The position numbers and the translations under genes are program-made. Under the pieces are notes generated by a model that worked only from the letters and a program-made list of their open reading frames with translations, was not told the origin of the DNA and searched no databases. From Flavobacterium glycines (GTDB lineage: Bacteria; Bacteroidota; Bacteroidia; Flavobacteriales; Flavobacteriaceae), in NCBI RefSeq assembly GCF_900100165.1, contig NZ_FNEO01000001.1, positions 620,001-684,000 of the forward strand: DNA of 64,000 nt, given 5' to 3'. Of the stretch, positions 9,458-38,581 are shown one piece after another. The number at the start of each line of letters is the position of its first letter. Positions within the stretch are counted from its first letter, which is position 1.

Positions 9458-9481
9458 AAATGATGTAGTATATAAGGTTTC

Positions 9482-11941: not shown

Positions 11942-11973
11942 TACTTATTAAATTTAACCCCTTTAGATTTTTT

Positions 11974-13899
11974 CTAATTCTTCTCCTTTTGTTTTTCTAA
12001 AACAGCTACAAATCCACCTCTTGGAAGACATTCAACATTTAAAACAGCTCCTTTTTTTACATTGATAATTTCCACATCAAAAGATTTGTCGTTTACCCCA
12101 TCCTTAATGAGCTTTAATTTATAATTAGCCTTATCTAAAAAACCAAAATCAATTTTTAATGTTTGCTTTTCATCTTTACCATTAAGTCCCCCTAAATACC
12201 ATTGATTTCCTTTTTTTCGAGCCATAATAACTTTTTCTCCGGGATAACCATCAACAAGTTTGGTCTCATCCCAAGTTACTGGAACTTTTTTGAGAAATTC
12301 TTTAGGCTCTACAGGCAAACTATTATAAGCTTCCGGCCTATCGGCAAAATGCTGTAAAGCTGATTCAAAAACAACTGACAATGCCAGTTCATGCCCATAA
12401 GAAGTAATATGAGGATGCTGCGAATTTGAAAAAGTTACCGGAGTATAATCCATAGAACCAATTACATTTCGAGTAAAAGGCAGCGTAGCATTATGTTCCG
12501 CAGCCTTATTGGTAAGTGTTGGTTTATTGTTATACCATTCGGCACCGTAAACTGCTTCAGTTGTCATTAAGTTCGGATAGGTTCTAGCCCACCCTCTTGG
12601 AACTGTAGCTCCATGAAAATTCACCATTATTTGGTATTTTGCAGCATCTTTCAAAATATCAAGATAAAGCTTCATCATATCCTGTTGGTCTCCGGCAAAA
12701 AAATCAACTTTAATACCATATATTCCAATTTCTTTAAGCCAGGCCAATTCTTTAGCTCTTTTTTCAGCTGTTAACATACGGTCATTTGGAGTTGGTTCAA
12801 GCCAGGATGTACCTGAATTATACCATATCAAAGGTTTAATTCCTTTGCTTTTGGCATAATTTACAGCAGCTATTATATCTCCACCGTTAGTCATAACATC
12901 CCACTCCCAGTCAATAAGCACATAAGGCCATTTCATTGCTACAGCCAAGTCAGTGTATTCAACCACTTTTTGATAATCCTTAGAACCTCTATTATACGCC
13001 CAATAAATCCAGGAAACTGGCCCTGGTTTTATCCAATCCGTTTCTTTTAATTGATTTGGTTCACTAACATCCATAATTAAAGTCGATTCAACCACATCAG
13101 ACAATTGACCAATTATCAAAGTATGCCATTGTGAATTCCATGGCAACATTGTTTTAACTCCTGTTTGTTTGAAATTATCTCTGGGGGAAGCATAACTTAC
13201 TTTGTATTCATTCGGATTTTTCAAATTACTCAATCTTGCAGCGCAATTATTTTCTGTACTATTTGCTTCCGAAATCAATACCCAAACAGGATTATTATTT
13301 ACTTTGAATAAAGCCGGAAATCCCCATTCCTGCTTATTGTTATTTGCTTTTCCGCTGTCTGAAAAAGGGAAAAAATCTTCATACGATTCTGTATAGGACT
13401 GCAACCAACGATTAGTAGTCGATGGAAAAACATAAGTTGTCATCTCGTCTATGACATTTACTAATGCATCTATTTTATCGGTGAATTCATAACGAAATGC
13501 TACACCATCATTATAAACCCTAAAAACAATATTCAGAGGTTTGTTATTTGAATTTACATATTTAAAAACTTTCTCAACACCCTGATTAGCGCAAAGTTTT
13601 CGCTTACCAGCAATCATTTCATATTTTTGGTTCACCTCTTTAACTTTAGATGCATCTACCAGTTTCAGGTTATCCGTAAACTGCTGATCATCTCTGACAA
13701 TACCCATAGGTGAATTGGGCAGTACTTCAATATATTCTAATTTGTTTTTATACAAAATCTTAAAAGATACTTGTCCAAAAGAGTTATTATCCGCAGTAAC
13801 AATCACCTTAATCTTTTTATTTGGCGACAAAATTTCCTGAGCATTTATTGAAAATATGCTTGAAATAAATAGACATACAATTAAACCAATGTATTTCAT
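11974..13899 (-). CDS. GH97 glycosidase of the retaining type, probable alpha-galactosidase
   Basis: A 641-residue exported enzyme (signal peptide to about residue 20, SINAQ). It shows the GH97 plan: N-terminal beta-sandwich (SPNKKIKVIVTADN, GIVRDDQQF), a barrel with SWIYWAYNRGSKDYQ and YVLIDWEWD, and a C-terminal beta domain. GH97 contains inverting alpha-glucosidases (SusB) with a Glu base and retaining alpha-galactosidases with an Asp nucleophile. Here IKVDFFAGD places Asp399 at the nucleophile position and Glu448 (TTEAVYGAEW) as probable acid/base, favouring the retaining alpha-galactosidase subgroup. In this operon it would remove alpha-galactose from fucosylated chains. Subgroup assignment is by motif only. 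Confidence 0.87.
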   Translation of the reverse strand: MKYIGLIVCLFISSIFSINAQEILSPNKKIKVIVTADNNSFGQVSFKILYKNKLEYIEVLPNSPMGIVRDDQQFTDNLKLVDASKVKEVNQKYEMIAGKRKLCANQGVEKVFKYVNSNNKPLNIVFRVYNDGVAFRYEFTDKIDALVNVIDEMTTYVFPSTTNRWLQSYTESYEDFFPFSDSGKANNNKQEWGFPALFKVNNNPVWVLISEANSTENNCAARLSNLKNPNEYKVSYASPRDNFKQTGVKTMLPWNSQWHTLIIGQLSDVVESTLIMDVSEPNQLKETDWIKPGPVSWIYWAYNRGSKDYQKVVEYTDLAVAMKWPYVLIDWEWDVMTNGGDIIAAVNYAKSKGIKPLIWYNSGTSWLEPTPNDRMLTAEKRAKELAWLKEIGIYGIKVDFFAGDQQDMMKLYLDILKDAAKYQIMVNFHGATVPRGWARTYPNLMTTEAVYGAEWYNNKPTLTNKAAEHNATLPFTRNVIGSMDYTPVTFSNSQHPHITSYGHELALSVVFESALQHFADRPEAYNSLPVEPKEFLKKVPVTWDETKLVDGYPGEKVIMARKKGNQWYLGGLNGKDEKQTLKIDFGFLDKANYKLKLIKDGVNDKSFDVEIINVKKGAVLNVECLPRGGFVAVLEKQKEKN

Positions 13900-13934
13900 T
13901 GTTTCTTATTCGGTTTTGTGATTAAAAAATATTT

Positions 13935-15446
13935 TCAGAGGTTAATTCCTTCTATTTTTAAAGTAAAGGGATTTTCAGTAATTTTTTCTTTTGGCAAAAT
14001 AATTTTAAGTCCCTGTTCATTCTGTTCAAATTCTAATTCATTTGGGAAACCTAACAAAGAAATTTTCCGAACTTTACCTTCAATAATTGGCAAAGACGCA
14101 ATAAAAATCGGTTCAGATGACCATTTAAGACAAATAGCATATAAATTTTTATTTTTGGATGTAAATCGTATTACTCCTTCACCATATTTTTTCCAGGCTC
14201 TTGTTCCATAAATTCCATCACCATTTATTTTAAGCCAGGAACCTACTCCTAAAAGAATTTCTTTTTGTTCTTGTGGAATAGTACCATCACTTTTTGGAGA
14301 AATATTCAACATGAGATTACCATTACGGCTCACATTCTCGATCAATCTTCTGATTATTATTGCTGAATTGCTTAGTTTCATTCCCTCTACATAACCAAAC
14401 TTATCGCCAATAGGGTCATCTACTTGCCATACGTAATCCGTAAGCTCTTTTGGTGCTCTTCCTTGACGTTCAAAATCACGAATACTGCCTGAAAGATAAG
14501 CATCACTTTTTGTACTTATAGACACGGGCTTCTTCCATTGTGCCGCCCTGTTGTAATAATAGGCAGCAAAACGTAATTTTACAGCATCTAAACTTCTGCT
14601 GTTTACACCATTGTCAAACCAAAACATATCGGGCTTGTATTTATCGACTAATTCCTGACAACGAGCCAACCATTCTTCCAAAAAAGCCTGACTTTGGGGT
14701 GCATAAATCTGATCTTCTATCACTTCTTCTCCACCTACTGCTGGTTTACGCACAGGCTCCGGCTGAGGAGGTCCATAAAAATCAGCATAAGCAGGATCAA
14801 ATAAATCTGTTTTCGTACCGAGTTTTGGATACATAAAATCCCAATGCTCCATTCTGTGGTTTGATACTCCAAATTTTAAACCCTTTTTACGAACAGCTTT
14901 ACTTAATTCGCCTATAAAATCAATTTTAGGTCCCATATCTTTTGAGTCCCATTTAGTAAGTTTACTGTCGTACATTGCAAATCCATCATGGTGCTCAGCT
15001 GTTGGTACCACATATTTAGCTCCGGATGCTTCAAATAAATCGGCCCACTCCTGAGCATTGAATTGCTCCATTTTAAACAATGGAATTAAATCTTTGTAGC
15101 CTATTTTATCTACAGTTCCTCCAAAATGTTCTGTATGCCAACGCTGAACTTCCGGATTGCTATACATATGACGCGGATACCATTCACTTGCATGTGCAGC
15201 AACAGTATATACTCCATAATGAATAAAAATTCCAAATTTTCCATCTAAAAACCATTCCGGAGTACTATAATTTTCTTTTATAGATTCCCATGTTGGCTTA
15301 TAGGGCCCTTTCGGGATAGCCGCAGCCTTTCCGCCTGGGAGCTCAATTGTAACTCTTGGAGGCGAAGGTTGATTTTGTGCATGTAGACTCTCAACTGTCT
15401 GACTTAATATTGTTACAATCATTAACACTTTGAAAAATCTTCTCAT
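13935..15446 (-). CDS. GH29 alpha-L-fucosidase
   Basis: A 503-residue exported retaining fucosidase with signal peptide ending near LHAQ (residue 24). GH29 motifs present: WFLDGKFGIFIHYGVYTV, SEWYPRHMY, YVVPTAEHHDGFAMYDSKLTKW, and the nucleophile strand DMFWFDNG with Asp278. The C-terminal part has the small beta domain after MLNISPKSDGTIP. GH29 enzymes remove alpha-1,2/3/4/6-fucose; the linkage cannot be read here. It is 46 nt downstream of a second, clearly different GH29 gene and 35 nt upstream of GH97, inside one operon. Confidence 0.93.
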   Translation of the reverse strand: MRRFFKVLMIVTILSQTVESLHAQNQPSPPRVTIELPGGKAAAIPKGPYKPTWESIKENYSTPEWFLDGKFGIFIHYGVYTVAAHASEWYPRHMYSNPEVQRWHTEHFGGTVDKIGYKDLIPLFKMEQFNAQEWADLFEASGAKYVVPTAEHHDGFAMYDSKLTKWDSKDMGPKIDFIGELSKAVRKKGLKFGVSNHRMEHWDFMYPKLGTKTDLFDPAYADFYGPPQPEPVRKPAVGGEEVIEDQIYAPQSQAFLEEWLARCQELVDKYKPDMFWFDNGVNSRSLDAVKLRFAAYYYNRAAQWKKPVSISTKSDAYLSGSIRDFERQGRAPKELTDYVWQVDDPIGDKFGYVEGMKLSNSAIIIRRLIENVSRNGNLMLNISPKSDGTIPQEQKEILLGVGSWLKINGDGIYGTRAWKKYGEGVIRFTSKNKNLYAICLKWSSEPIFIASLPIIEGKVRKISLLGFPNELEFEQNEQGLKIILPKEKITENPFTLKIEGINL

Positions 15447-15492
15447 TTGGCTAAATTTATTATTAATTCGTTTTAACGAGACTATTCAAATT

Positions 15493-17136
15493 TTAAACAA
15501 TTTCCAAAGCATTAGCATACGAAGCTTCCGGTTTTTGACTTGGGAAATACACTTCAAGAGCCTGTTCAGTTTGTTTAAACTTCAATTTTTCTCCTGTACT
15601 TACTAATTTTATTTGTCTTATTTTCTCAGTATGATTTGGATTTGATTTCCCTAAACTTTTTATAGCAGCCACGCCATTCTCCGGCCAGGCCATTACCGTA
15701 GCATACAGTTTGTTATCTTTTTGAGCAAAACGAATATCTTCGGCTGTATAAGGTTTCCCTTTCCCTTCGTTGAATCCCTGAGCAGTCAAAGCTCCGGCAC
15801 TTGCTTGTTGTGGGCCTTCGCCAAATACTTTCCAGGGACGCGTACCATAAATACTTTTACTGTTCAACTTCATCCAAACACCGATTTCTTTTACGATTTC
15901 TCGTTCTAACTCATCGATACTTCCATCGCCACGCACCGGAATATTCAACATCAAATTTCCGTTTTTACTCACCACATCTACCAGCGTATGAATAACTGTT
16001 TTAGCCGATTTGTATCGTTTGTTATTGTAAACACCACGATCATAATGCCAGTTTCCAATGCAGGTATCGGTTTGCCAGGGCAAAGGCTCGATATTGTTAC
16101 TTTGCCCTTTTTCGATATCCCAAACCATCGTTTTACGTTGTTGTTCGGTTAGAATTTTACCCGTAATAACTGTCTGAACCGTTTTATTTTTTTGCAAACT
16201 TTTATTATACATATGCGCTGCAATACGTAAACCTGCATCACTCACAGGCCACAATGGTAATGCTGTATCGTCAAAATAAATCATATCCGGATTGTATTTC
16301 TCAATCAGATCAATTGTTCTGTCGTGGAATTTTTCACAATAAGCTGATGATGGTACTGAAGCTCCGTCTGCCCAATCCCACTGACTATGCACCGATGCTC
16401 TATCTGAAGTTTTTACACTTAAGGGGTGATTTTGTGCATACAAATCCTGAGGATCCAAACCTTCCCACCAGGTTCCTTTTCCATCCGCTTTAGTTAGTTT
16501 TCCATCATAAGGCACTCCTGCTAAAGGTCCATTTTTATCAGCACCCTGAGCAGTATCAAACCAATTCCAGGCATGGGCAGCGTGAACACTCACGGCAAAA
16601 GGTAATCCTGCTTTACGGGCGGCTTTTTCCCATCCGGCAATGATATCTTTTTTAGGACCAACTTTAGTCGAATTCCATTGTGGTTGGTATTTGCTGTCAT
16701 ACAAATCTAAATTATCATGATGATTGGCCATTGCCATAAAATATTTGGCTCCGGAATCTTTATACAAATTCACCAATTCTTCCGGATTCCATTTATCGGC
16801 TTTCCAAACATTGATTACATCTTTGAATCCAAATTTTGACGGATGTCCATACTTTTCCAAATGGTATTTATACTGCCTTGAACCTTCTTCATACATCCCT
16901 CTTCCGTACCAGTCTCCTGCTTCAGGTTCACACTGAGGTCCCCAATGTGCCCACATTCCAAATTTAGCATCACGAAACCAATCCGGAACCTGATATTTCT
17001 CTAACGAATCCCATGTTGGTTCAAATGGTCCTTTGAAAGCTGGGGTATTTAAAATTTTCGAATAACCTAACATTGGCGACAAATAGAGTCCAGCTAATGC
17101 TGATATCCCTAATTTCAAAGCGTTTCTTCTTTCCAT
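15493..17136 (-). CDS. GH29 alpha-L-fucosidase with twin-arginine-like leader, first gene of the operon
   Basis: A 547-residue GH29 protein. The leader begins MERRNALKLGISALAGLYLSP, with a double Arg followed by a moderately hydrophobic stretch, resembling a Tat signal rather than the Sec leader of the neighbouring GH29. Catalytic-domain motifs are WFRDAKFGMWAHWGPQCEPEAGDWYGRGMY, YFMAMANHHDNLDLYDSKYQPW-like sequence, and DMIYFDDTALPLW with Asp289 as nucleophile candidate. It ends with the usual C-terminal beta domain after MLNIPVRGDGSID. The two GH29 proteins differ through most of their length, so they likely serve different linkages. It is divergent from the AraC-type gene, with the operon promoter expected in 17137-17250. 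Confidence 0.9.
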   Translation of the reverse strand: MERRNALKLGISALAGLYLSPMLGYSKILNTPAFKGPFEPTWDSLEKYQVPDWFRDAKFGMWAHWGPQCEPEAGDWYGRGMYEEGSRQYKYHLEKYGHPSKFGFKDVINVWKADKWNPEELVNLYKDSGAKYFMAMANHHDNLDLYDSKYQPQWNSTKVGPKKDIIAGWEKAARKAGLPFAVSVHAAHAWNWFDTAQGADKNGPLAGVPYDGKLTKADGKGTWWEGLDPQDLYAQNHPLSVKTSDRASVHSQWDWADGASVPSSAYCEKFHDRTIDLIEKYNPDMIYFDDTALPLWPVSDAGLRIAAHMYNKSLQKNKTVQTVITGKILTEQQRKTMVWDIEKGQSNNIEPLPWQTDTCIGNWHYDRGVYNNKRYKSAKTVIHTLVDVVSKNGNLMLNIPVRGDGSIDELEREIVKEIGVWMKLNSKSIYGTRPWKVFGEGPQQASAGALTAQGFNEGKGKPYTAEDIRFAQKDNKLYATVMAWPENGVAAIKSLGKSNPNHTEKIRQIKLVSTGEKLKFKQTEQALEVYFPSQKPEASYANALEIV

Positions 17137-19172: not shown

Positions 19173-20462
19173 ATGAAAAGTGTAACCCAAATTTTAAGCA
19201 TATTCCTTTTGGTAGTTTTAGGGGCAAACGCACAACAGGAAAAAGGAATAACTGGTTCAAATAATTGGCTAAATAACTGGACAGAATTCAGACCAAATAA
19301 AGTAGATTATGGCGAAGCTAATCAGATTTTAACAGGTACTATTTCTGTAAATACCAAGCTGATTAAAAAGAACAAATACATCCTCCAGGGAAATGTCTAT
19401 GTTACTAATAATGCAACATTAACAATAGAACCCGGGACAACTATTATTGGCGACTCTCAATCAAATGCCGCTTTGATTATCACAAAAGGAGCCACAATAA
19501 TTGCCGATGGACTTGAGACAGATCCAATTGTTTTTACTTCTAATAAAAGCATTAAAAAAGCCGGAGACTGGGGAGGATTAATAATTCTGGGTGATGCCCC
19601 TATCAATAAGTTTGGAAACTCTTCATCAGTAAATTTAGGACTGGACACTTCGTTAACCAATTATGGTGGCAACAACGCAGAGAGTAATTCCGGAGTTTTA
19701 AAATTTGTCAGAATTGAATTTGCAGGAAAAAAAGTAAGCGGAGAGGAAAATTTTAATGGCTTATTATTAGCAGGCGTGGGCAACAAGACCATTCTTGAAA
19801 ACATCATGGTAAGTTATGCTGCCGGAGATTCTTTTGAAATATTTGGAGGCGATCTAAAATTAAAAAAAATGGTGTCTTTCAAATGCAACAGGGATGATTA
19901 TAAATTCAACTACGGTACACAATGTAAAATCAGCAATTCATTAGCCATCCGTTCTTCGTATTTAACCAGTAGTTTAGGTGCCAGATGTATTAATGTTGCT
20001 TCTTATGACAAAAAAGAAGAAGTAGATTTTTCTAAAAATCAAACCCTGGTTACTGCTTCTAATTTAACCCTAATAAACAACAGCAACAATATAGAAACCG
20101 ACATACAGTCCGGCTTAATTAAAGAAGCTGTTTACATAGGCGAAAATGCCGCAATTAATTTCGAAAAAACAGTAATATCCGGCTTTAATCCGGCTGTGAT
20201 ACTGAGCGATAAAATTGCTGTTAACCAGGAAAATTTACAAAAAATACGTTTTGAAGCAATGTATTTTAATTCATGTAAAGGAAATATTTTCACAGAATTC
20301 AATGAAAACAATGAAGATTTAGAAAACTGGTATGGAAACAGCATTTTTTTCAATGTTTATTCCAAAGGTAACAACGCAGATACATTCATCGATTTTGCTA
20401 ACGAAAAAATCCCAGACTATAGATTGCGTATTGGAAATATTACCGCCTCTAATGATGATTAA
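19173..20462 (+). CDS. Secreted right-handed beta-helix-like protein in the sprB operon
   Basis: A 429-residue exported protein (signal peptide to about residue 20, LGANAQ). The core repeats short strands typical of parallel beta-helices: GNVYVTNNATLTIEPGTTIIG, ALIITKGATIIADGLETDPIVFTSN, GDWGGLIILGDAPINKFG and LKFVRIEFAG. This resembles Bacteroidota surface proteins with the TLTIEPGT motif. No T9SS sorting domain is visible at the C-terminus, which ends YRLRIGNITASNDD. No lyase catalytic motif is apparent, so the fold is the safe statement and the function is unknown. It starts 108 nt after the previous gene and 73 nt before the SprC-like gene. Confidence 0.72.
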   Translation: MKSVTQILSIFLLVVLGANAQQEKGITGSNNWLNNWTEFRPNKVDYGEANQILTGTISVNTKLIKKNKYILQGNVYVTNNATLTIEPGTTIIGDSQSNAALIITKGATIIADGLETDPIVFTSNKSIKKAGDWGGLIILGDAPINKFGNSSSVNLGLDTSLTNYGGNNAESNSGVLKFVRIEFAGKKVSGEENFNGLLLAGVGNKTILENIMVSYAAGDSFEIFGGDLKLKKMVSFKCNRDDYKFNYGTQCKISNSLAIRSSYLTSSLGARCINVASYDKKEEVDFSKNQTLVTASNLTLINNSNNIETDIQSGLIKEAVYIGENAAINFEKTVISGFNPAVILSDKIAVNQENLQKIRFEAMYFNSCKGNIFTEFNENNEDLENWYGNSIFFNVYSKGNNADTFIDFANEKIPDYRLRIGNITASNDD

Positions 20463-20535: not shown

Positions 20536-21981
20536 ATGAACAAAATTACCCCAATCTTTTTTTTCTGTTTCATATTATTTCTTTTACCGTCGAGAAGCAG
20601 TGTTTACGCACAATTCTCTATTGGTAATCCTTCTTTGCAATTTAGTCAAATTTGTGCCAATTCATCTTTCAACACCTTTAGTGTAAGTTTTACCTTTTCA
20701 CCGTCTGCATCATTAAGCCCTACAAATCAATTCATTGTAGAACTTTCTGATGCAACTGGCTTTTTTAGCAACCCAACAATACTGGCCACCACTAATCCCG
20801 GAGCTGTTACCACTTCTCCTGCAACAATATCTTTTTCGGTTCCAACAAATACAGCCGGAGAACAATATAAAATACGCATAAAAAGTACTGGCCCGGTAGC
20901 CAGTAGTTCTAATTCATTGGCTTTTTCTGCCTATTACAAAATTCAGGATTCACAATTCACCATAAATAATTTTAAATCAACAGCTACTTATTGTGCCGGC
21001 GGAAGTTATCTGCTAACTATTGACAATCCTGGTACAGGAACCAATGATTCCCCTTTAAAATATCCGTCTTTAACATACAATTGGTACAAAGAACCGAGTT
21101 TGACTCCCATTGCAACAGGACAAACTCTCACTGTAAGTCAGCCCGGAACCTACTATGTAAAAACCAATTATGGCTCCTGTACGTCTGATTCTTATTCGAA
21201 TAAAGTAACCGTTAACGAAGCAACCAGCGCAACCAGCACCACAATTACATCCAGTTTAGGAAATCCATTTTGTTCTAATCAAGGCAGTACAACTCTAACC
21301 ACAGTTAGCGGAAACAGTTATCAATGGTACAAAGACAACAAAATCATATCCGGAGCAACCAATCAAAGTTACATTACGAATCAGTCCGGACTCTACAGTG
21401 TAACCGTTAATTATGGCGGTTGTGTTGCCAATGCTTCTATAGATTTAAAAACCTATTCTTTTAGCAGCAGCATTAATATTCCTGCTACAAACTATATTGA
21501 TACGGAATCAGCAGAAACTTTATCAGTATCTGTAACATCATCTGCTTCTAATCCTGAATACAAATGGTATTTAAATAACAACATTATACCTAATGCAAAC
21601 GGAAGCAACTATGATGTAAATACAACCGGAAATTATAAAGTAGTTGTTTCACAAACATCGGGCTGTGTTTCCTCTGAAGAACTAACTTTTACAGTTCAAG
21701 CTTTAATGAATTCTAATGCTACCGAAATTCCCAATTTAATTAGCCCTAATAATGACGGAGTGAATGACACCTGGATTATACCTCAGGAATATACCAGTGG
21801 AACCGAAACAGAAGTTTTAATAATTAGCGCTATTGGAGAAATCGTACTCAGAACAAATAATTATCAAAATAATTGGCCGGAAAATGCAACTAACTTCAAA
21901 AATGTAAATCCGGTATATTATTATATAATTACCACAAAAGATGGCCAAACAAGAAAAGGATCTGTAACGATTATTAAATAA
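20536..21981 (+). CDS. sprC: SprC-like secreted protein with Ig-like repeats and T9SS type B sorting domain
   Basis: A 481-residue protein with signal peptide ending VYAQ (residue 26). It has three or four Ig/PKD-like modules (for example SYQWYKDNKIISGATNQSYITNQSGLYSVTV and YKWYLNNNIIPNANGSNYDV). The C-terminal 85-90 residues begin IPNLISPNNDGVNDTW and match the gliding-motility-associated type B domain (TIGR04131/CHU_C) that directs export through T9SS to the cell surface. In F. johnsoniae sprC and sprD precede sprB in the same operon; the symbol rests on that order and on the sorting domain, not on alignment. It ends 3 nt before the SprD-like start, so the two are translationally close. Confidence 0.75.
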   Translation: MNKITPIFFFCFILFLLPSRSSVYAQFSIGNPSLQFSQICANSSFNTFSVSFTFSPSASLSPTNQFIVELSDATGFFSNPTILATTNPGAVTTSPATISFSVPTNTAGEQYKIRIKSTGPVASSSNSLAFSAYYKIQDSQFTINNFKSTATYCAGGSYLLTIDNPGTGTNDSPLKYPSLTYNWYKEPSLTPIATGQTLTVSQPGTYYVKTNYGSCTSDSYSNKVTVNEATSATSTTITSSLGNPFCSNQGSTTLTTVSGNSYQWYKDNKIISGATNQSYITNQSGLYSVTVNYGGCVANASIDLKTYSFSSSINIPATNYIDTESAETLSVSVTSSASNPEYKWYLNNNIIPNANGSNYDVNTTGNYKVVVSQTSGCVSSEELTFTVQALMNSNATEIPNLISPNNDGVNDTWIIPQEYTSGTETEVLIISAIGEIVLRTNNYQNNWPENATNFKNVNPVYYYIITTKDGQTRKGSVTIIK

Positions 21982-21984
21982 TAT

Positions 21985-24936
21985 ATGAGAAATATTCTTT
22001 TAATAATCGGTATAATCCTTTGTTCATTTCAACAAGTTTCCTGTCAGGAAGACGGTGTAGTATCTTTTAGACTCCCAATTCGAAATTCTTTAAAATTTAA
22101 CCGATACCTAATCAACCCAGCATTCAGCTTTGTTCGGGAACAAAGTTCATATATCAGTTTTTATACAAAAAGACAATGGGCGCAATTTGACAATGCCCCA
22201 CAAACTTACTTATTTGGATATTCCGGCAGAATTACCGAAAATCAAGGCGTTGCTTTAGGTTTATTTCAGCAAAACTATGGTGTGCTCACCACTTTTGGAG
22301 GTGTTGCCAATTTTGCCCAAAACATTATGCTTGAAGAAGACAGCAATTTGACATTTGGATTAAATGTTGGCTTTTACAAAAGCGGAATCAACAAAGGAAA
22401 GATAATTACTAATTATCCTGATCCGTCCTTAGACAACATTCCTTCTAATGCGTTACTTACCGTAAATCCCGGAATCAATTACGGAACCGCATTCCTTGAT
22501 TTTGGGGTTTCAATCAACAATCTCATTTTATACAATCTTAAGACTTCCAAAACTATAGCAGACGATCCCGAAAAAAGCATCGAGGCGCATATCATGCACA
22601 CAGGCTATCTGGACACCTATGGTTTTTTTGACAAAAGTAAATTTTCGGCCTTAGTTAAATCCGAATTCAAAAAAGACAAAACGGTTATTTCGGGTTTGGT
22701 ACAATTTAATATTCCTAATGGGGTTTGGGCTCAGGCCGGCTATAACTCTGTTTACGGAATGTCTGCGGGCGTTGGATTGAATATTTCAAATAAGATTTCA
22801 ATTGAATACAATTTTGAAAAAGGAACAGGCAATCTGTCCAATTTCGGACCTTCACATGAAATCGTTTTTGCCTATAAATTCAAAAACAAAACATTTGACT
22901 ACGGCGATGATGATGACGACGAAGGAGCCATTATTCCATCAGCAAACAACAGAAAATACGTTCCTGTAAAATCAAAACAGTCCAAAGTTACTCCTGCTAA
23001 AAACGATCAAAAATTAAAAGCCGAACAGGAAGCGAAAAGACAGGAAAAATTAAAACAAATGGCTGCTGCAAAAGCTAAAGCTGATTCTTTAGCGAAAATC
23101 AAACAACTTGCTGAAACTAAAACAAAAACCGAAACAATAGTTCAGGCAAAACAGGCTGCTAACGCCAAATTAAGAGAAAACGCTAATGCTAAAGCCGATT
23201 CAATATTAAAAGCAAGACAAAAAGCCTATGCAGAAATTAAAGCCAAAGCCAAGGCTAAAAATGATTCATTAATACAAGCCCGACAAAACGCTTTAACAGC
23301 AGCTAAAACCAATACGAAGTCAGCAGTTACATCAGTACCAACTCAAACAAAAATTGTTACCGATAATAAAACAAAAGCAGATGCATTGGCAAAAGCAAAA
23401 CTAGCCGCTGATGAAAAAGCGAAGGCTGATGCATTGGCGAAAGCAAAACTAGCAGCCGAAGAAAAAGCGAAAGCAGATGCATTGGCGAAAGCAAAACTAG
23501 CCGCTGATGAGAAAGCGAAATTAGCCGCTGATGAAAAAGCAAAAGCCGACACATTAACGAAAGCAAAACTCGATGCCAAAGAAAAGGCTAAAGCTGACGC
23601 ATTAGCGAAAGCAAAACTAGCTGCCGAAGAAAAAGCAAAAGCAGATGCATTGGCCAAAGCGAAATTAGCCACTGATGAAAAAGCGAAGGCTGACGCATTA
23701 GCGAAAGCAAAACTCGATGCCGAAGAAAAAGCGAAGGCTGACGCATTAGCGAAAGCGAAACTCGATGCCGAAGAAAAAGCAAAAGCCGATGCATTAGCGA
23801 AAGCAAAACTAGCTGCTGATGAAAAAGCGAAGGCAGATGCATTGGCCAAAGCAAAACTAGCTGCTGATGAAAAAGCGAAGGCCGACGCATTGGCCAAAGC
23901 AAAACTAGCTGCTGATGAAAAAGCGAAGGCCGACGCATTGGCGAAAGCAAAACTCGATGCCGAAGAAAAAGCGAAAGCAGATGCATTAGCGAAAGCGAAA
24001 CTCGATGCCGAAGAAAAAGCGAAGGCCGACGCATTGGCGAAAGGAAAACCTATAACTCCTCAAAACGACGAAAACGCTAAATCGATGGATAATTTAGCAG
24101 GAATGATTAAAGAAATAAAGAATAACCAACAGGATTTATTAAAAAGATTTAACGAAACTGTTGCTATAAAAGATAAAGACCTTAAAGATTTAAAAGAAGA
24201 AAATGACTTAAGCGAGAAAGGTATTTTTAAAGCTCCAAAACCATTTAAAAGTGTTTCGGCCGAAAACAAAGCTTTGGAATCATTAAAAACCGAACTAGAG
24301 CAAGTTAGCAACAGCCAAAAAGAAAAAATCAACGAATTAGAACGCATATACCTTTTAAGGCTTAAAAAAGTATCTGATAAAAACGATGAGTACAATCAAT
24401 TCTATCGTGAAACTCTGGACAGATTAAAAAGAGAGCAATTGGAAGTTGGACAATCCATTCAAAATCTAAATGCTTCTTTGGAAAAAATAAACTCGGAAAC
24501 CGAAATAGAGAAGAAAAGAAGAATCAAACGTGCATCATTTGAAAACGATCAGGAAAGATATGCAAAAGACAGAACAACATTAAACCAAATTAAGGAGAAA
24601 ACTCCTTTTAGTGCAGCTCCGTTAAAAGCGGAAGATTTTGATTATGGTGAAGAACAATCTTCAATGCAAATTGTCAAGAATGTCAAACACACAGAAAACG
24701 GTTATTATTTAATTCTTGCTGTGCATAATGATGTGACTAAAAGAGACCAGTTTTTAACAAAAACAGTTGCTTCAGGACAATCTAACGTTGATTTCTTTTA
24801 TGATGTAAATACGAGTAAATATTTCATTTATTATCAAAAATTTGACACTATAGATGAAGCCAAAAATGCCTTAAAAAATAAAGACAACAAATTATATAAT
24901 GCTAAATTATCAATAGTTAAAATAGAAAATAATTGA
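21985..24936 (+). CDS. sprD: SprD-like protein: PorP/SprF barrel fused to a TolA-like helix and a SPOR-like domain
   Basis: A 983-residue protein with a leader ending near VSCQ. Residues about 22-310 resemble PorP/SprF outer membrane barrels (NPAFSFVREQSSYISFYTKRQWAQFDNAPQT, GYNSVYGMSAGVGLNISNKISIEYNFE). An acidic patch (YGDDDDDEGA) leads to a long Ala/Lys/Glu helix: irregular at about 340-464, then 13 near-identical 16-residue units (465-680, ADALAKAKLAAEEKAK), then a coiled coil (about 690-880). The last 90 residues (NGYYLILAVHNDV, KYFIYYQKFDTIDEAKNAL) look like a SPOR-type peptidoglycan-binding domain. It lies between the type B cargo gene and sprB, the place of sprD in F. johnsoniae. A periplasm-spanning tether between outer membrane and wall is inferred. 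Confidence 0.78.
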   Translation: MRNILLIIGIILCSFQQVSCQEDGVVSFRLPIRNSLKFNRYLINPAFSFVREQSSYISFYTKRQWAQFDNAPQTYLFGYSGRITENQGVALGLFQQNYGVLTTFGGVANFAQNIMLEEDSNLTFGLNVGFYKSGINKGKIITNYPDPSLDNIPSNALLTVNPGINYGTAFLDFGVSINNLILYNLKTSKTIADDPEKSIEAHIMHTGYLDTYGFFDKSKFSALVKSEFKKDKTVISGLVQFNIPNGVWAQAGYNSVYGMSAGVGLNISNKISIEYNFEKGTGNLSNFGPSHEIVFAYKFKNKTFDYGDDDDDEGAIIPSANNRKYVPVKSKQSKVTPAKNDQKLKAEQEAKRQEKLKQMAAAKAKADSLAKIKQLAETKTKTETIVQAKQAANAKLRENANAKADSILKARQKAYAEIKAKAKAKNDSLIQARQNALTAAKTNTKSAVTSVPTQTKIVTDNKTKADALAKAKLAADEKAKADALAKAKLAAEEKAKADALAKAKLAADEKAKLAADEKAKADTLTKAKLDAKEKAKADALAKAKLAAEEKAKADALAKAKLATDEKAKADALAKAKLDAEEKAKADALAKAKLDAEEKAKADALAKAKLAADEKAKADALAKAKLAADEKAKADALAKAKLAADEKAKADALAKAKLDAEEKAKADALAKAKLDAEEKAKADALAKGKPITPQNDENAKSMDNLAGMIKEIKNNQQDLLKRFNETVAIKDKDLKDLKEENDLSEKGIFKAPKPFKSVSAENKALESLKTELEQVSNSQKEKINELERIYLLRLKKVSDKNDEYNQFYRETLDRLKREQLEVGQSIQNLNASLEKINSETEIEKKRRIKRASFENDQERYAKDRTTLNQIKEKTPFSAAPLKAEDFDYGEEQSSMQIVKNVKHTENGYYLILAVHNDVTKRDQFLTKTVASGQSNVDFFYDVNTSKYFIYYQKFDTIDEAKNALKNKDNKLYNAKLSIVKIENN
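23377..24048 (+). repeat. 48-bp tandem coding repeats, 13 full units plus a partial one
   Basis: From 23377 the 16-residue unit ADALAKAK(L)(A/D)A(E/D)EKAK repeats 13 times to 24024, then starts a 14th copy that breaks off near 24048. A half unit (LAADEKAK) is inserted after unit 3. Units 9-11 are almost identical at DNA level and units 7-8 and 12-13 form matched pairs, suggesting recent slippage or unequal exchange. There are no spacers, so it is not CRISPR. Confidence 0.95.
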
Positions 24937-25066: not shown

Positions 25067-28000
25067 ATGAAAAAAAACTACCTACTAATAGCAATACTAA
25101 ATACTATTAATAAACCTTTCTTTTTTTTACATAAGATAAAAAAAACTGGTTTTTTAAATATCCTATTCTTTTTAGGATTGTTTCTGAATACAAACTCCAA
25201 CGCTCAGACTTTTAACACTTTTGACATTAGATATGCTACCGAATTAAAAGGTGACATGCTTGTAATTGGGAATAATCTTCTTGGAAAAGACAACAACCCT
25301 TTAAATGACAACAGCACTAATGAAAGCGTATCAATGCAGTATATTGATATTGACAGTGATGCCTCTACTTTTAATTCCAGCAGTGCCGATTTAGCTGTAC
25401 CAAATACTGTTGATTGTTTTAAAATTGCTTATGCCGGATTGTATTGGGGTGCTTTAATTAAAACTGGTGACAGCAGAACGGACATCAATAAAGTTAAATT
25501 TAAAACGCCCGGAAGTTCAACTTATACAGATGTAACTGGTGAACTTATCTATGATGCCAATGTAGCCCCAATCGTTCCTGATGCAAACAAGCCGTATGCC
25601 TGCTATGCAGATGTGACCTCTATAATTTCCGGTTTAACAAGTCCTCAGGGAACTTATACAGTAGCTAATGTAAAATCAAGTACTGGACTTAATGGTTCTA
25701 CAGGTTTAGCTGCGGGATGGACATTGTATGTGATTTATGAAAACCCGAAAACAACCACTAAATACATGGTTTCTTATGATGGTTTTAGTGCTCTTTATGA
25801 TGGTAGAACTCTTGACATTCCTATTTCCGGATTTAGAACACCACCTTCAGGATCAATCAATATAAAATTTGGTTTTGCAACATTAAATGGGGACAAATCT
25901 TCAAATAACAGTAATAAAACTAAAGTTGAAATTAACAATGGTACTGCAAACGGTACATCTTTAACCACGACTCTAAGACCATCAAATTATTTTTTTAACA
26001 GTTCTATCACTAATTTAGATAGTTATTTTACTTCAAGAAACCCTAATGGCACTAACAGTTTAGGATATGACACCGGTATTGAACAACTTTTGAATGTTAA
26101 TCAATCTACAATTGGAAATAATGCGACAAATGCCCAAATCACTCTACAAGTTGCAAGGGGTCAGGCTAATCCAATATTTAGTTTTTTCAATGCCTTTCAG
26201 GTTAATGTTATTGCTCCGGATATCTCCCTTACTAAACTAGTAAAAGACATCTCAGGTAATGATATCGGAAATACTGATGTTGCTCTTGGAACCAATTTAT
26301 ATTATGAAATTGGTTTTCAAAGCACCGGTAATGACAATGTGACAAATTTCACCTTAAAAGATGTTCTTCCTAAAAATGTAATATTTAACTATCCTTCGGA
26401 TATTATATCATTACCTACAGGTGTAACACATAGCTATAATGCTACAACAAGAGAATTACTTTTTAATATACCAAACAGCTTAGTTGAAGTTGGTGATGTT
26501 AGCCAAACCATCCGCTTACATGTTCAGGTTGTTTCCAGTTATAAAGACTTATTGGATGCCTGCTCAAATGAAATCAAAAATCAGGCTTTTGCCAGTTATC
26601 GAGGTACTATCAACACAACACCAAGAGTTGATGAAGGTAGTTTTGCTTCAACAGTTTGTAATTTTGGCACACCATCATCTACTAATTTTTTAGTAAATAT
26701 TAATGGGCAAACCTTTAGTAGTAATGAAGTACTATGCGGGGCCAGTGTACAATTATCAGGACCTAGTGGCTATAGTTCATACTCTTGGTCTACAAGTCCT
26801 ACAGGAACTCCGGTTATAGGCACTAATCAAAATTATAACGCTACGGCTACCGGAACCTATTATATTACCTCCACATCTCCCTGTGCTACGGTAACTGAAG
26901 CTATAACAGTTAATCCTTTTGGCAATACAGTTACCAATCCTGTTATACCATTTGCAGATGAGGTAGCTGTTTGCCCTAATAATGGAAAGGATCTTCCAAA
27001 TATTTTTCTTTGTGGTGCCAATGCAACCCGATATATTCAAACTAATATATCAGATGCTTCAACTATTGTTTGGGAAAAATTAAATGAAAACAGTTGTACC
27101 GCTGTTACAGTACCTAATTGTGCCAATGAAAGCACATCATGTCAATGGAATAGCGTTGGAACAGGGCAAAACTATACTGCAAATACATCAGGTCAATTTA
27201 GAGTTACCATAAATTATCCGGGGGGTTGTTACAGTATTTTCTATTTCAATGTATATCAAAATGTATTAAATCCAACTGCTACCACCAGAGATATTATTTG
27301 TAGTAAAAATGGAGAAATAACGATTGGCGGAGTTCCTTCAGGATATGAATATAGTCTGAATGGTTCTACTTATCAATCGTCTAATGTTTTTTCTATCCCT
27401 ACGGCAGGTGCTTATACAGTTTATATCAGACAGGTGGGTGTTACGACTAATCCTTGTATTTTTTCTGTAACTAATATACTTATCAGACAAAGAAATTTTA
27501 CAACTTCTACAATTGTTACTCAGCCAATATGTTATGGAGATAAAGGTGCTATCAAAATAGGTGCTCAGGATGCCTATCCCCAATATTACTACAGGATCCA
27601 TCAAGGCGCAACTTTAGTAAACAGTGTAGGCCCAATATTAGCTAGTGATTATGAGTTTGCCGGTTTAAATCCGGGAACCTATACTGTACGCGTATGGACA
27701 GATGATGGTTGTGATTATTCCACTACTATCGATATAATTCAACCTCCACTATTGTCAGCAACTTCAGCATTGACAAAACCACTTACCTGTACTGATGGAG
27801 AAATAACTATTTATCCTAGTGGCGGAACGCCTCCTTATGCTTATTATGTAAATGGCTCGACTTCTTCGCAATCAACTCCACAAATTACAGTTAGCAGTGC
27901 AGGTACATATTCAATTCAAATAGTAGATAGCCAAAATTGCAGCACTACAACTTCTATAACGGTTGCTGCTATAGCACCTCCGGTATTCACCATTAGTAAA

Positions 28001-31000
28001 ACGGATATAAAATGCTATAACGATACTACCGGAGTTATTAATTTTAATGTTACAAATGCTAATGGATATACCTTAGCTTACAGCATTAATAATGGAACAA
28101 CTTATTCAGCAAATCCAACATTCTCCAACCTAAGCGCAGGGACTTATAATGCCATTGTAAAATATTCTTTGGCAGGAACTGACTGTTTTACTACAGCCCA
28201 AACGATTACCATTACACAGCCAGCCGCAGCATTAACAGCTACTGCAAGCATAACAGAACTGGCAGGTTGCGGACCTGCAGGAGAAGGAAAAATAAGCATT
28301 ACTAATCCGCAGGGAGGCACAGCACCTTATGAATATAGTTTTGACAATCAAGTTACATGGACAACTGTAAATGAAGCCTACAAAGCTCCTGGAACTTATA
28401 CAGTATATGTAAGAGATGCCAATGGATGTATCTATTCAATGTCTAATATAATTATAGCTCCACCACCGGTTACACCAACAATTACAATTGCAAATCCAAC
28501 TTATAATTGCGATGGAACTGCTAATAGCAATGTAACTGTAACAACCATTCCCAATGCAAATTATACTTATCAATATCTGTTGGATGGGGTTGCAAACACA
28601 AATATCCCTGCTACTATTTTTACCAATTTAACAACAGGGAATCATACTATTTCCGTTAGATACAGTTCAACCAGCAGTGCTTTATCTTGTATCCCACAAA
28701 CTGACTTTTTAGTTGTAGTTCCTTCTGGTAATGCTTTTACAGCAACTGTTTCAGGCGTTCAAAACCTGAGTTGCTCAGGGGCAAACGATGGTAAAATCAC
28801 AATTACAGCTGACAATTTTAATACTGCTAATGGATTTCAATATTCCATTGACAATGGGATTAGTTGGAACACCCAAATGACTTCTCCTTATACAATTACG
28901 GGATTAGCTGCAGGAACCTATAACATTAAAATTCGTTATGGCGCAACTTCCGGAAACACTTGTGAGCAATCGTTTACTCCAGTAATTACTGCGCCATCTC
29001 CATTAGTCACTACTGCCAACATAAATAGCCCAGCCAGTTGTTCAGTTGGAGCTACGATTTCAACTGCTTCAACAGGAGGAACAGCTGCTTACAGATATGA
29101 ATTATGGAATGCTACAGCAACCACTAACATCATACCTTCACAAAGTTCAGCGATCTTTAATAATGTTGCACCCGGAACTTATATTGTTCGCAGTTATGAT
29201 GCTAATAACTGTACGGATGACAGCAATGTAATTACCGTAGTCGCTCCTCCGGGATTATCAGCGACTCTAGATCCTAGTTCGGATATTTGTTTTGACAGTC
29301 TGAATCAGGCAACATTAATCGTTACTGCTTCTGGAGGAACTGCTCCTTATGTCTACAGTCTGGACGGTGCTCCGGCTCAAAGCAGTAACACTTTCAACAA
29401 TGTAGGTATTGGCACTCATACAATTGTTGTTACCGATAGCTATGCCTGTACCTCAACTATAAGTAATATCAGCATTACTCCGCAATTAACAGCAACAATC
29501 TCAAATATCAAAGAATTAGATTGCAGCAGCACCCCAAATGCAGTTATCACAGTTGCAATAACCGGAGGAAACAGCCCTTTTACTTATAAAGTCAAACAAG
29601 GATCTAGCAGTTATGGTTCCAATAATACTGTAACAGGAACATCATTTACTTATGCTACTGCAACAGCAGACGTCTATACTTTTGAAATTACAGATGCGAA
29701 GGGCTGTGTTGCTACAACCACTGCAACCATAAATCCATTAACACCAATTACAGCTACATTAAATGCCGTAAATCCTTCTTGTAATGGAGCTTCAGATGGC
29801 TCAGTACAAATCATTCCATCAGGCGGAATAAGTCCATACACCTACAGTAGTGATGGAACAAATTACGTTTCAACTTCCTTATTTTCGGGATTAGCAGCGG
29901 GCAATTATACCTTCTACATTAAAGACACCAAAGAATGTATCATCACAAAAACACTAACCTTAACCGAACCTACAACTTTAACCACAACAGCAACAGTAGT
30001 TCCGTTTAGTTGTAGCCCTTCTAATACCAAACAATCCGCAACAATTACAATTGTAGTTCCTACAACCGGAACCGCACCTTACACCTACAGTTTCAATGGC
30101 AGTAGCTATAGCGCCATCAACACTCTGACTCTAAATGATAATGGTAGCAATCAAAATGTTAGCTATTCGGTAAAGGATGCTAAAGGCTGTACATTTAGCA
30201 ATAGTGTTAGCTTATCGAAACTAAACCCTCCTATGCCAGGTACAATTGGAACCAGCCCGATTAGTTGTTTAGTAACCACTAGTACGGTAACCGTTACTCC
30301 TGCTCCGGGAACAGGTGTTGGCACATTGAATTATGAGATTATTTCTCCAATTTCAGCAGTAACATCCAATTCTGCCGGAGTGTTTAATGGGTTAGCACCA
30401 GATACCTATATTTTCAAAATAACCGATGCTAATGGCTGTTATTATACACAATCACATAATGTATTACCTGTTATACCAATTACCATTTCAGGCAATGTAA
30501 CAAGTGATGTACTTTGTAAGGGAGGAAATTCAGGAAGCGCTATATTCACCGTTTCCGGATTTTCAGGAACCTACAGTTATAGCATTAATGGGGCTACAGC
30601 CATTACAGGACAAACAGCTGCAACAATTAATTTATCCAATAGATCAGCAGGCACTTACACTATTTCAATTACTGACGAAGCTACAGCGTGTACAGCAAAT
30701 ACTTCTGTAACTATAACAGAACCTGCAATTGCCTTATCATTGACTGCTTTGGCTTCAAATATTAATTGTAATAATGATAATTCTCAAATCACCATAACCG
30801 CTTCAGGAGGAACAACCAATTACACCTATGCGGCTGTCATTTCTGGCGGTACCGCTCCTACGACGTATAGTAATAGCAAAATAGTGACTGTTGACACAAA
30901 TTCAGGAAACAACTTATCATGGGATGTCTATGTAAAAGATGCCAATGGTTGTATCGAATTCACAACGGTAACTATTAGTACCGATCCGCTGCCAACCGTA

Positions 31001-34000
31001 AATACACCTGCATTAGCTTCCAACCAATGCACTGCTTCAACAGCTTTTACATTTACAGCCACCGGAACCGGAATCGCTCCATTAAATTACAGTATCAATG
31101 GAGGTCTTACTTACCAAAGCAGCCCTACATTTACAGTCAACACAGCCGGAAGTTATACCGTTACAATTAAAGATGCCAATGGTTGTACCGCTACAAGCAA
31201 TAATCCGACCATAGTTTACCCAAAACTAACATTAAGCGCAGTCCTAAACAAAGACATCACTTGTAGCCCTACCACTGACGCTCAAATTACCTTGACCGCT
31301 ACCAATGGAAACAGTGCTGGCTATACCTATGCATATTCTAATAATAACGGGACCTCTTTTATAACGATGGCTTCCACTATTTTTAACACTAATACGCCAG
31401 GCAGCTATACTTTTAAGGTAACCGATGCCAATGGTTGTACTGCCGAAACTTCAACAGCTATTGTATTAACCGCTCCGGTCACTCCGGAAATCATTGACCA
31501 CACTCCTATTCAAGAAATTTATTGCAACGGCGAAGCAACCGCAGCAATTAAGATAAACATTGATAGCAGTAAAGGAATAGCACCATTTAGCTATAGTATC
31601 GATGGAACCAATTTTCAATCTTCAAACGTTTTTTCAAGTTTAGCTGCCGGAAACTATACCGTAACATTAAAAGACAGTAAAGGTTGTACAGATAGTTATC
31701 CTATTACTATTAACCAGCCTGATGCTTTAGATTATATCCTCAAAGCAACTCCAATTACATGTCCTGTTAATACTCCAGGTTCTATTACAATTAAAAGAGG
31801 AGCAGCAGGATTAGGAGGCACAGCACCTTATACATATACACTAACTAATAATGCTGGTTACCCAACACAAATAGTAACCAACGACCCTGGAACTTCTGAT
31901 TATACTTTTGGGGGATTAAATTTTGCTACATATTATATTACTGTGACAGATGCTAATGGATGTTCCTTAAAAAAATCCGAAAAAGTAGCTTCACCTCCTG
32001 ATAATCTTGACATTGAGATAGAGCCAACAGCTGATTGTATCTCAGGAGGAACCGTCAAAGTAACTGTTGGAGGAGCTGTATTAGGAACAGGTCCTTTTTA
32101 CTTTGCTATTTACCAACAGCCGTACCCGACAACTCCCACTTTTGATGGAGTTGGGATTGTTGAATCTCCTTTTCAAGCAGCAGATGCTTCAGATCCAAAA
32201 TCAACTACTTTTACAGGATTACTCCAAGGAGTATACTATTCGTTTATGGTTTATGATGCATCTACCGGATGCTCTTATATCAGACAAGCCGAAACTCCTA
32301 CGATTAAAGCAACCAGTCTGGCTACTTTAAGAGTTGTAACCGATGTGACCTGTAAAGGAGCCAATGATGGAACAGTTTCGATTACTTTGGATAAAGATCC
32401 ATCTGCTGCTCCCGGATACAACCCTCCTACCTCAGTTGATTATGCCGTTTATGATTCAAAAACCAATATGCCTTTGTCTCCAGTCCCTAATGAAGACTTT
32501 GGAATTGCTGTTGGTTCTTATCCATTTGTGATGCCACTAATTGGAGGTCTTGCACCTGGTTCATACTATGTAGTAATCACCGAGCACGGAGGAACAAATG
32601 ATGGTTGTAGTAGTGCAACACTTCCTTTTGACATCTACGAATCGGCTACTGAATTGGAAGTTACAGCTACGATTACTAAAAAAGACAACTGTAATCTTAA
32701 TGCAGGTCAGATTGTAGCAATTGCCAAAGGAGGAACTACAATGTCCAGAGAAGATGCATTAGCCGTTCCGCCTCAGGTAGCTACCGCAATTCCATACCAA
32801 TATCAGATTTTAACTGATACAGACACTCCTCCTCTATCTAATAATTCAAATTGGGGAACAACAAACACCTTCTACAAAGAAGCAGGCAACTATATTGTTT
32901 ATGCGATGGATGCCAATAAATGTATTAAACCATTCCCTATCACATTAGATTCTGATGCTGCTCCTACTATAGCTACTCCAGCTACAATCTGTTATGATGG
33001 CAATCCATTTACAATAACCATTACCGGAACTGTTGACCCGGCAATTGTTGGCAGCAAAACCTACAGCATCAATGGCAGCAGTTTTCAAAGCAGTCCTAAT
33101 TTCACCTTTAATGCAGCAGGCACTTATAATTTAGTCATTAAAGATGGTAATAATTGTACTGCCAATGTTGATTACATAGTTTATCCGCAATTACAACTTG
33201 ATGCAGCCTTAACTAAGGAATTAGATTGTACTACATCTCCAAATGCAGCAATTACATTAACCGCTACAGGTGGAAACACTTCTCCTTCGGCTAGTTATAA
33301 TTATGAATCTTCTCCTGATGGTACAAGTTGGTCTACAATGGCGACTAATGTATTTACTGCAACAACAGCCGGAATCTATTACTTTAGAGTTACAGATAAC
33401 AACAATCCAACGAGTTGTCAGGCTACTACGAGTTTAACTGTAGATCCTAAAACACCAACCGTTTTCACTACTGCTGAAACCAATGTTAATTGTAATGGCA
33501 GCAATGAAGGAACAATTACCGTAAATGTAAGTTCCGGTGTAGGTCCATATCAATATAAATTAGACGGTTCTGTTTCTTATGGTTACCAGACTTCTAATCA
33601 ATTTAATTCATTAACAGCTGGAACAAACTATGTTGTAACGGTAAGAGACAGTAAAATGTGTGAATACTCAAGCACTCCAATTACAATTACCCAGCCAACT
33701 CCTTTAAGCGCAACTTCGGCATTAACCACACCTTTAAGCTGTGGTACAGGGAATGCAACACAAGCAGCAACAGTAACAATAACAGCTATTAACGGAACAG
33801 CGCCATATACCTACAGCTATAATGGAGGAGTAAGTTATACTTCATCAAACACCTATCAGTCATTTACAGGTACCACTTTTAATGTTTGGATAAAAGATGC
33901 TAATGGCTGTACTTTTGAGCTGATAAATGGTGTTACTATTCCACCTTTAAATCCGCCAACAAATATAGACTTTAGCGGAACACCTATTTATTGCGCACCG

Positions 34001-38539: not shown

Positions 38540-38581
38540 CAAAAAACCAAAGCCATGTGGACCCAAATTAAAAATAGTACG

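Follow-up and report, generated by a model that had tools for sequence, protein, structure and literature searches.

Exported proteins of the type B of the type IX secretion system (T9SS) need a specific PorP/SprF-like carrier, which is commonly encoded by the next gene downstream (PMC12618676, PMC9143113). In Flavobacterium johnsoniae, the carrier SprF is attached to GldK, a protein of the gliding track, through a disulfide bond of its Cys-Pro-Cys tail (PMC12635249). In Porphyromonas gingivalis, the outer-membrane carrier barrel PorP is joined to a periplasmic domain of the wall-binding type on a second chain, PorE, the wall domain being of the OmpA type (PMC9143113). We analyzed a window of 64,000 nucleotides from Flavobacterium glycines (contig NZ_FNEO01000001.1, positions 620,001 to 684,000 of the forward strand), in which a gene at positions 21985-24936 (+ strand) encodes a barrel of this carrier family extended by a long helical arm with a C-terminal domain that very probably has the SPOR fold. 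The gene is almost certainly the orthologue of the gliding gene sprD. A first-pass annotation, made from the sequence alone, had read it as a possible wall tether for gliding adhesins.

With a barrel of the carrier family covalently joined to a periplasmic arm, SprD makes its role in gliding a testable question: it would either be one chain that anchors a reportedly mobile surface protein to the wall or offer a second, disulfide-free ride on the gliding track. The best explanation as a whole, to which we give an even chance, is that SprD is a carrier of the neighbouring protein SprC with a releasable SPOR-tipped arm.

Identity and architecture of SprD

Two published primers for F. johnsoniae sprD are said to lie at the ends of the gene, one within its first 57 bp and one within its last 33 bp (PMC9870892). 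One of them, which had no match in a set of genome contigs searched, matched exactly in one of 299 genomes of the genus Flavobacterium (G195). There both primers match a single open reading frame (ORF) of 1588 residues exactly, one of them ending at bp 57 and the other having its start 33 bp from the end. From the primers we infer that this genome is F. johnsoniae. The primer-matched frame (locus L060) has the barrel, spacer, stalk and SPOR domain described below, with a sprC-like frame before it, a sprB-like frame after it and a SprF ending in NCPCTQSPVHD further on (L060, L061). Since the primer positions identify the F. johnsoniae gene and architecture and operon are common to both, the F. 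glycines gene is almost certainly sprD; the comparison with F. johnsoniae SprD suggested by the first-pass annotation thus led to a known gene and not to an unknown fusion. The SPOR domains of the two proteins are 61% identical, whereas the F. johnsoniae spacer is longer, giving 1588 residues there, 1912 in strain CI04 (L129) and 983 in F. glycines. The gene was reportedly described as a gliding gene by Rhodes et al. in 2011. It is listed among the genes required for gliding in F. johnsoniae (PMC11885536). Its SPOR-tailed architecture seems undescribed: the SPOR tail was found in no description in a literature search that left subscription journals and theses mostly outside.

The gene is a single open frame with an ATG start that encodes 983 residues, and ORF and domain analyses agree with the annotation that it joins a barrel, a long helical region and a SPOR-like end. 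The hydrophobic N-terminus was read by eye as a signal peptide (residues 1-20, 21985-22044), to which the cysteines of the protein are confined. It is followed by the PorP/SprF beta-barrel (residues 21-300, 22045-22884), of the SprD-type barrel group. The barrel assignment held in profile searches, PF11751 (PorP_SprF) matching residues 34-297 (E 9.3e-51, 173.4 bits against a curated cut-off of 22.3) and TIGR03519 residues 1-299 (E 2.5e-52, 178.1 bits against 90.55). Eight places in the F. glycines genome match PF11751, seven of them over the cut-off, and only sprD is long among these seven, with a frame length of 984 against 306-346 for the other six, in line with the annotation's statement that PorP-family proteins usually have about 300 residues. 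The hallmarks of PorE, a beta-propeller and an OmpA C-terminus, had no Pfam match in SprD.

Past the barrel lies a variable helical spacer rich in alanine and lysine (residues 311-699, 22915-24081), delimited by composition and by the spacing in orthologues. Residues 311-700 consist to 83% of A, K, D, E, L, R and Q, with two glycines and six prolines, and most of the spacer is a 16-residue tandem repeat (48 bp, 23374-24049, Tandem Repeats Finder). It leads into a conserved stalk (residues 700-875, 24082-24609) and the SPOR-fold domain (residues 890-983, 24652-24933); in an alignment of 34 sequences (A4) both stalk and SPOR domain have invariant columns. For the 284-residue piece of stalk and SPOR domain, AlphaFold2 predicted three stalk helices (2-45, 59-96 and 103-173 of the piece) with turns between them (mean predicted local distance difference test score, pLDDT, 85.7; predicted template modelling score, pTM, 0.53). 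The annotation had described some 540 residues of TolA-like helix. Its Ala/Lys/Glu-rich helical character was retained, and a single straight helix was replaced by the repeat spacer and the three-helix stalk. Similarly, the likeness to TolA applies to composition and not to family, as no TolA family in Pfam or NCBIfam matched SprD at E <= 0.1. The best TolA likeness was one TolA fusion in the PDB (E 0.2, on the repeat only), and kinship with TolA was rejected. A Pfam Fibrinogen_BP match over the cut-off at residues 462-778 was taken as an artefact of the repeat, and two antisense ORFs (23343-23897 and 23588-24034) were set aside as its by-products.

Both ends of the helical region carry a similar short motif, FDYGDDDDDE just past the barrel (residues 304-313, 22894-22923) and FDYGEEQ just before the SPOR domain (residues 885-891, 24637-24657). 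In a set of 69 orthologues, a motif of the form F/L-D/N-x-G followed by an acidic residue or Gln precedes the SPOR domain in all 69, and Y-G with three acidic residues follows the barrel in 36.

These orthologues come from a survey of the best 80 of 356 relatives (named loci, L numbers), with the genera Flavobacterium, Gelidibacter, Winogradskyella, Confluentibacter, Mangrovimonas, Psychroserpens, Algibacter and others. Barrel and SPOR domain stand in one intact frame in 69 of the 80 loci; eight loci cut by the start of a contig (L068, L069, L070, L088, L091, L100, L105, L140) and three with a SPOR frame lacking a barrel, possibly broken in the repeat (L065, L120, L141), were dropped. The proteins have 730-1912 residues, and the stretch from barrel to SPOR domain varies from 336 to 1517 residues (median 674). 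At a helix rise of 0.15 nm per residue, fully helical stretches of these lengths would measure roughly 50 to 228 nm; the periplasm is a few tens of nm wide. Because of this range the spacer, judged by sequence lengths, is not matched to the width of the periplasm and is no fitted rod, contrary to the annotation's helix long enough to cross the periplasm. A straight trans-periplasmic rod was rejected in view of the 4.5-fold variation in spacing and of the turns predicted in the stalk.

A search with the SprD barrel in 60 genomes of the window's family yielded 67 matches. Of these, 51 are strong (E <= 1e-18) and have frames of 402-991 residues, and the 16 weaker ones have short frames of 301-340 residues. 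A SPOR match lies in the same frame for 48 of the 51 strong barrels, as judged by contig, strand, place and frame length, and in the other three genomes on another contig. Since most strong barrel matches carry the SPOR domain in frame, SPOR-tailed barrels form, on these sequence matches, a subfamily of their own. PF11751 itself matched in 60 of 60 family genomes; among the strongest matches, which are those listed, the frames have 293-376 residues.

The C-terminal domain and the positions of the RlpA glycan contacts

Sequence profiles and predicted structure together make it very likely that the last domain of SprD has the SPOR fold. For residues 882-983, with an input of 40 sequences each at least 61% identical to the F. 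glycines domain, AlphaFold2 predicted strands and two helices (mean pLDDT 84.9, pTM 0.77). This model aligned with solved SPOR domains in VIA-align, namely RlpA (6i05: Z 6.3, 3.5 Å, 73 residues aligned; 6i09: Z 6.1, 3.6 Å, 74), DamX (2lfv: Z 6.2, 2.8 Å, 76), DedD (6ztg: Z 6.1, 3.2 Å, 76) and CwlC (1x60: Z 4.9, 3.1 Å, 73), and the SPOR-like C-terminus of the annotation was thereby borne out. The SPOR structures reached Z 4.9-6.3 against 3.7 for the next unrelated row, where a Z below 8 alone may reflect merely a common arrangement; the highest score (Z 7.9) went to 6ozd, an exported protein of Burkholderia whose title does not mention SPOR. In Foldseek the two best matches were SPOR domains and weak (E 0.079 and 0.18), and none was below 0.001.

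Profile comparison with hhalign gave a probability of 95.3% and E 2.1e-8 for 19 domains (alignment A1) against seven SPOR sequences, one row of which is partly provisional, and 77.2% and E 2e-5 for 40 closer domains (A3). Neither PF05036 nor the NCBIfam SPOR models matched the full F. glycines protein or its last domain alone at E <= 0.1. PF05036 matched four of the 19 members of A1 (best 1.1e-4), other families also reaching 0.002-0.003. Among eight longer relatives scanned, its cut-off was passed by the SprD orthologue L178 (43.2 bits against 21) and the paralogue L174 (25.5); L168, L171, L179 and L183 had matches below the cut-off and L176 and L186 none. A sequence search of the PDB with the SPOR profile returned no SPOR domain, seven ribosomal bS6 proteins (best E 0.012) and one chitin-binding protein, which we count against the assignment.

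In further support of a SPOR domain, the search with the SprD domain also reached SPOR proteins of the HU-CCDC81 kind. At L054:13640-14980, a protein called HU-CCDC81-like by its likeness to the Pfam-named L169:35-970 carries a second, SprD-like SPOR domain that ends in LSLVKVEN, as if copied from sprD, and is 33% identical to the F. glycines domain.

The fold of the C-terminal 80 residues is what SprD has in common with RlpA, DamX, DedD and CwlC; its SPOR domain stands on an outer-membrane barrel instead of a division protein or enzyme, and the residues for contact with bare glycan are replaced. In RlpA, the SPOR domain contacts bare glycan through Q270, F274, R309 and R311 (PMC6895207). The aligned residues of F. 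glycines SprD are Ile910, His914, Phe947 and Tyr949, in a mapping that runs via CwlC and Bacteroidota SPOR domains and not via RlpA itself. The strand-3 residues are those we take, from the general SPOR pattern, to correspond to R309 and R311. In F. glycines, two SPOR matches below the cut-off retain the glutamine, one in a small protein and one in a protein that was judged amidase-like by eye; the HU-CCDC81-like SPOR domain of this genome has valine at this position.

In other bacteria, septa are where SPOR domains are found (PMC6895207). A septal or assembly role without gliding load was weighed, in which the domain would put SprD at division sites or aid the assembly of the operon products. 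The SprD-type copy in the HU-CCDC81-like protein at L054 would fit such a role. The constant placement of the gene between sprC and sprB and its listing among the genes required for gliding (PMC11885536) do not, and we consider this role very improbable.

Probable cargo and possible partner of the arm

In F. glycines, the end of sprC and the start of sprD are 3 bp apart, and in the 66 named loci with both genes seen sprD starts between -11 and +5 bp from the end of sprC (in L098, L124 and L129 the stretches begin 43-505 bases before sprD and sprC was unseen, which reduces 69 to 66). The sprC orthologue (20536-21981, +) was assigned by its position before sprD, as in L060, and encodes 481 residues with a T9SS type-B (CHU_C) sorting domain (PF13585 over its cut-off at 6e-14; TIGR04131 with 34.5 bits just under its cut-off of 35). 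Because of this adjoining gene order and the published pattern of downstream carriers, SprD is probably the dedicated type-B carrier of SprC. The annotation had linked the protein to the export of SprB. SprD as SprB carrier was rejected, since SprF with its Cys-Pro-Cys tail follows sprB and published carriers commonly lie directly downstream of their cargo. The gliding role that it had drawn from the position before sprB is upheld by the membership in the sprB operon and by the identity as sprD.

SprD and the SprF/PorP carriers share the PF11751/TIGR03519 barrel beside a type-B cargo gene. They differ behind it, since SprF ends after the barrel with the GldK-binding CxC tail, whereas SprD lacks such cysteines and continues for about 680 residues. 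CxC tails were present in all 13 SprF sequences read. No cysteine past the signal peptide was found in 19 of 19 SprD proteins (L053 being a C-terminal part only) or in 64 of 69 further ones. The remaining five have cysteines beyond residue 28, at 41-44 in L079, L093 and L136, at 272 in L076 and at 813 in L111; those at 41-44 are probably signal-peptide residues of frames that start about 31 residues early. Because cysteines past the signal peptide are absent from most SprD sequences, use of the SprF-type disulfide with GldK is not expected.

SprC is said to move on the gliding track, with an Oxford D.Phil. thesis given as the source (PMC12635249). Static type-B proteins have been proposed to be those whose carriers pair with the wall-binding PorE, and mobile ones those whose carriers do not (PMC9143113, PMC12618676). 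If SprC moves and SprD carries it, SprD should not be fixed to the wall. The fixed wall tether of the annotation is thus disfavoured by the reported movement and by the replaced RlpA contact residues, and its link to an inner-membrane motor received no support from our analyses.

The mechanism that we propose starts at the translocon, where the barrel would collect SprC and hold it in the outer membrane, as suggested by gene order and the published carrier rules. Past the barrel, the chain would run on the periplasmic side through a helical repeat spacer of freely varying length and the three-helix stalk to the SPOR domain. In the periplasm, the SPOR tip may form a non-covalent, releasable contact, for which the gliding track or one of its partners is the likeliest target. 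This contact would stand in for the disulfide holding SprF to GldK, and the long spacer would act as a slack leash and not as a rod. The reported movement of SprC, the replacement of the RlpA glycan residues and the variable spacing are the reasons why we favour a releasable contact with a putative partner in the gliding machinery over a fixed wall anchor, a preference that has roughly one chance in two of being correct.

Wall anchoring is the main rival. SprD would then be a single-chain counterpart of PorP-PorE, with the SPOR domain binding peptidoglycan and either fixing barrel and cargo or steadying the track. The analogy lies in an outer-membrane carrier barrel joined to a periplasmic domain of the wall-binding type, and PorP-PorE-PG1035 provides the precedent, with the difference that PorP-PorE uses two chains and an OmpA-type wall domain (PMC9143113) and SprD one chain and a SPOR fold. 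Besides the fold itself, the occurrence of this SPOR type together with LysM and OmpA is in favour of an anchor, as is a gene at L221, in another family of the class. There, a PorP barrel protein of 450 residues whose SPOR tail passes the PF05036 cut-off (9421-10773) is encoded directly downstream of a T9SS-sorted protein of 1721 residues (10780-15945), which scored 52.2 bits with the type-B model (cut-off 35) and 32.3 with the type-A model (cut-off 23). An anchor is difficult to reconcile with the movement described for SprC (PMC12635249), with the replacement of the glutamine and both arginines of the RlpA glycan site and with a spacing so variable that it is ill-suited to a fixed bridge. 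We regard it as possible, though on the unlikely side. A carrier that moves and at the same time touches the wall would reconcile the SPOR fold, the movement of SprC and the slack, length-variable leash: the SPOR tip would repeatedly grip and release glycan as a guide, spacer or brake. Here both the wall contact and its binding strength are conjectural, and we consider it improbable.

Several points weigh against the releasable contact with the gliding machinery that we prefer. SPOR domains recognise peptidoglycan strands (PMC6895207), and this SPOR type is found fused to LysM, and to OmpA in a PorE-like protein, which is wall-minded company. Copies with two or three tandem SPOR domains fit avidity for glycan as well. 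The missing glutamine is a hint and not a proof: on sequence comparison its loss alone would leave glycan binding possible, because the HU-CCDC81-like SPOR domain of F. glycines also lacks this residue. The movement of SprC rests on one passage and a figure legend that cite the thesis, and neither SprC nor SprD is mentioned in PMC12618676 or PMC9143113. The company of the shared domain can be read as wall affinity or as a common coupling module and does not decide between them.

More tentatively, SprD may stand at the head of a separate class of type-B carriers with SPOR tails. In these, a fold of the wall-binding type would have become a releasable coupling to the moving gliding machinery, a second, non-covalent mode of attachment to the track beside the SprF/PorG disulfide, and the SPOR domain would not serve septal glycan. 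We consider this rather doubtful at present.

Relatives of the SPOR domain and the sprD locus

One shared domain ties SprD to a LysM protein, to PorE-like proteins and to a protein with a SprB-N domain; a profile search with A1 at E <= 0.001 found none of these relatives in the F. glycines genome, SprD apart. Flavobacterium genomes, the F. johnsoniae-like one among them, encode next to guaA a LysM-repeat protein whose C-terminal end is a SPOR domain of the SprD type, with a stalk resembling that of SprD (L206, L207, L211, L218:6340-8253, L222:6836-8740). It has LysM repeats where SprD has the barrel. Its SPOR type (L218:6340-8253) is that of SprD, and its stalk is related with less certainty: the stalk profile matched the F. 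johnsoniae LysM protein with E 1.2e-7 and 27.9 bits, where the best of 1000 shuffles reached 8.8 bits. These scores carry a high coiled-coil bias, and among the four LysM proteins L219 had a full-length score lower than that of the best shuffle.

PorE-like proteins that bear, close to their N-terminus, between one and three SPOR domains of the SprD type are encoded at L057:5745-8357, L058:5794-8328, L176:3591-6170, L180:1737-5120 and L187:2791-5349, the one at L180 having three copies; OmpA and beta-propeller were confirmed by Pfam for L176, and the other four were judged PorE-like by eye. Proteins of about 500 residues at L168:2066-3628, L169:2175-3647 and L170:2089-3654 join a domain like the N-terminus of SprB to a C-terminal SPOR domain of this type.

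Sequence searching detected the SprD SPOR domain in 27 of the 60 family genomes and profile searching in 38. Across the phylum, 17 of 198 genomes gave a profile match, and 15 of these 17 belong to the window's family. SPOR-tailed copies that lie in the sprB operon and have two or three tandem SPOR domains are present at L055, L056, L177-L179 and L181-L185 (at L185 only sprC was seen beside the gene). SPOR-tailed copies at L171-L175 and L186 had neither sprC nor sprB within the stretch fetched. Co-occurrence with gliding markers was set aside as a test without power, GldJ being over its cut-off in 59 of the 60 family genomes.

Within the window, the order sprC-sprD-sprB-sprF is present as in other loci. 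The sprB orthologue (25067-38539, +), identified by ORF, translation and locus comparison, encodes an adhesin of 4490 residues. Its N-terminal part is 38-56% identical to the gene at the same place in 14 loci (L039-L052), and its C-terminal part 54-65% identical in the 11 of these with a complete gene. The sprF orthologue (38555-39556, +; 333 residues, PF11751 1e-66) ends in NCPCTQSPVHD, with the Cys-Pro-Cys codons (residues 324-326) at 39524-39532. Upstream of sprC lies a conserved gene (19173-20462, +) for a protein of 429 residues, for which no Pfam or NCBIfam family matched; all 14 loci L039-L052 have a homologue of it, 52-64% identical, ahead of sprC. The order of this gene, sprC, sprD and sprB is kept in all 14, and sprF is the next gene after sprB in each of the 11 loci that extend far enough. 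In the larger set, the start of sprB went undetected at the threshold used in 10 of 69 orthologue loci. At L184:3997-4500, a separate protein of 167 residues with a single domain of the SPOR type is encoded between sprD and sprB.

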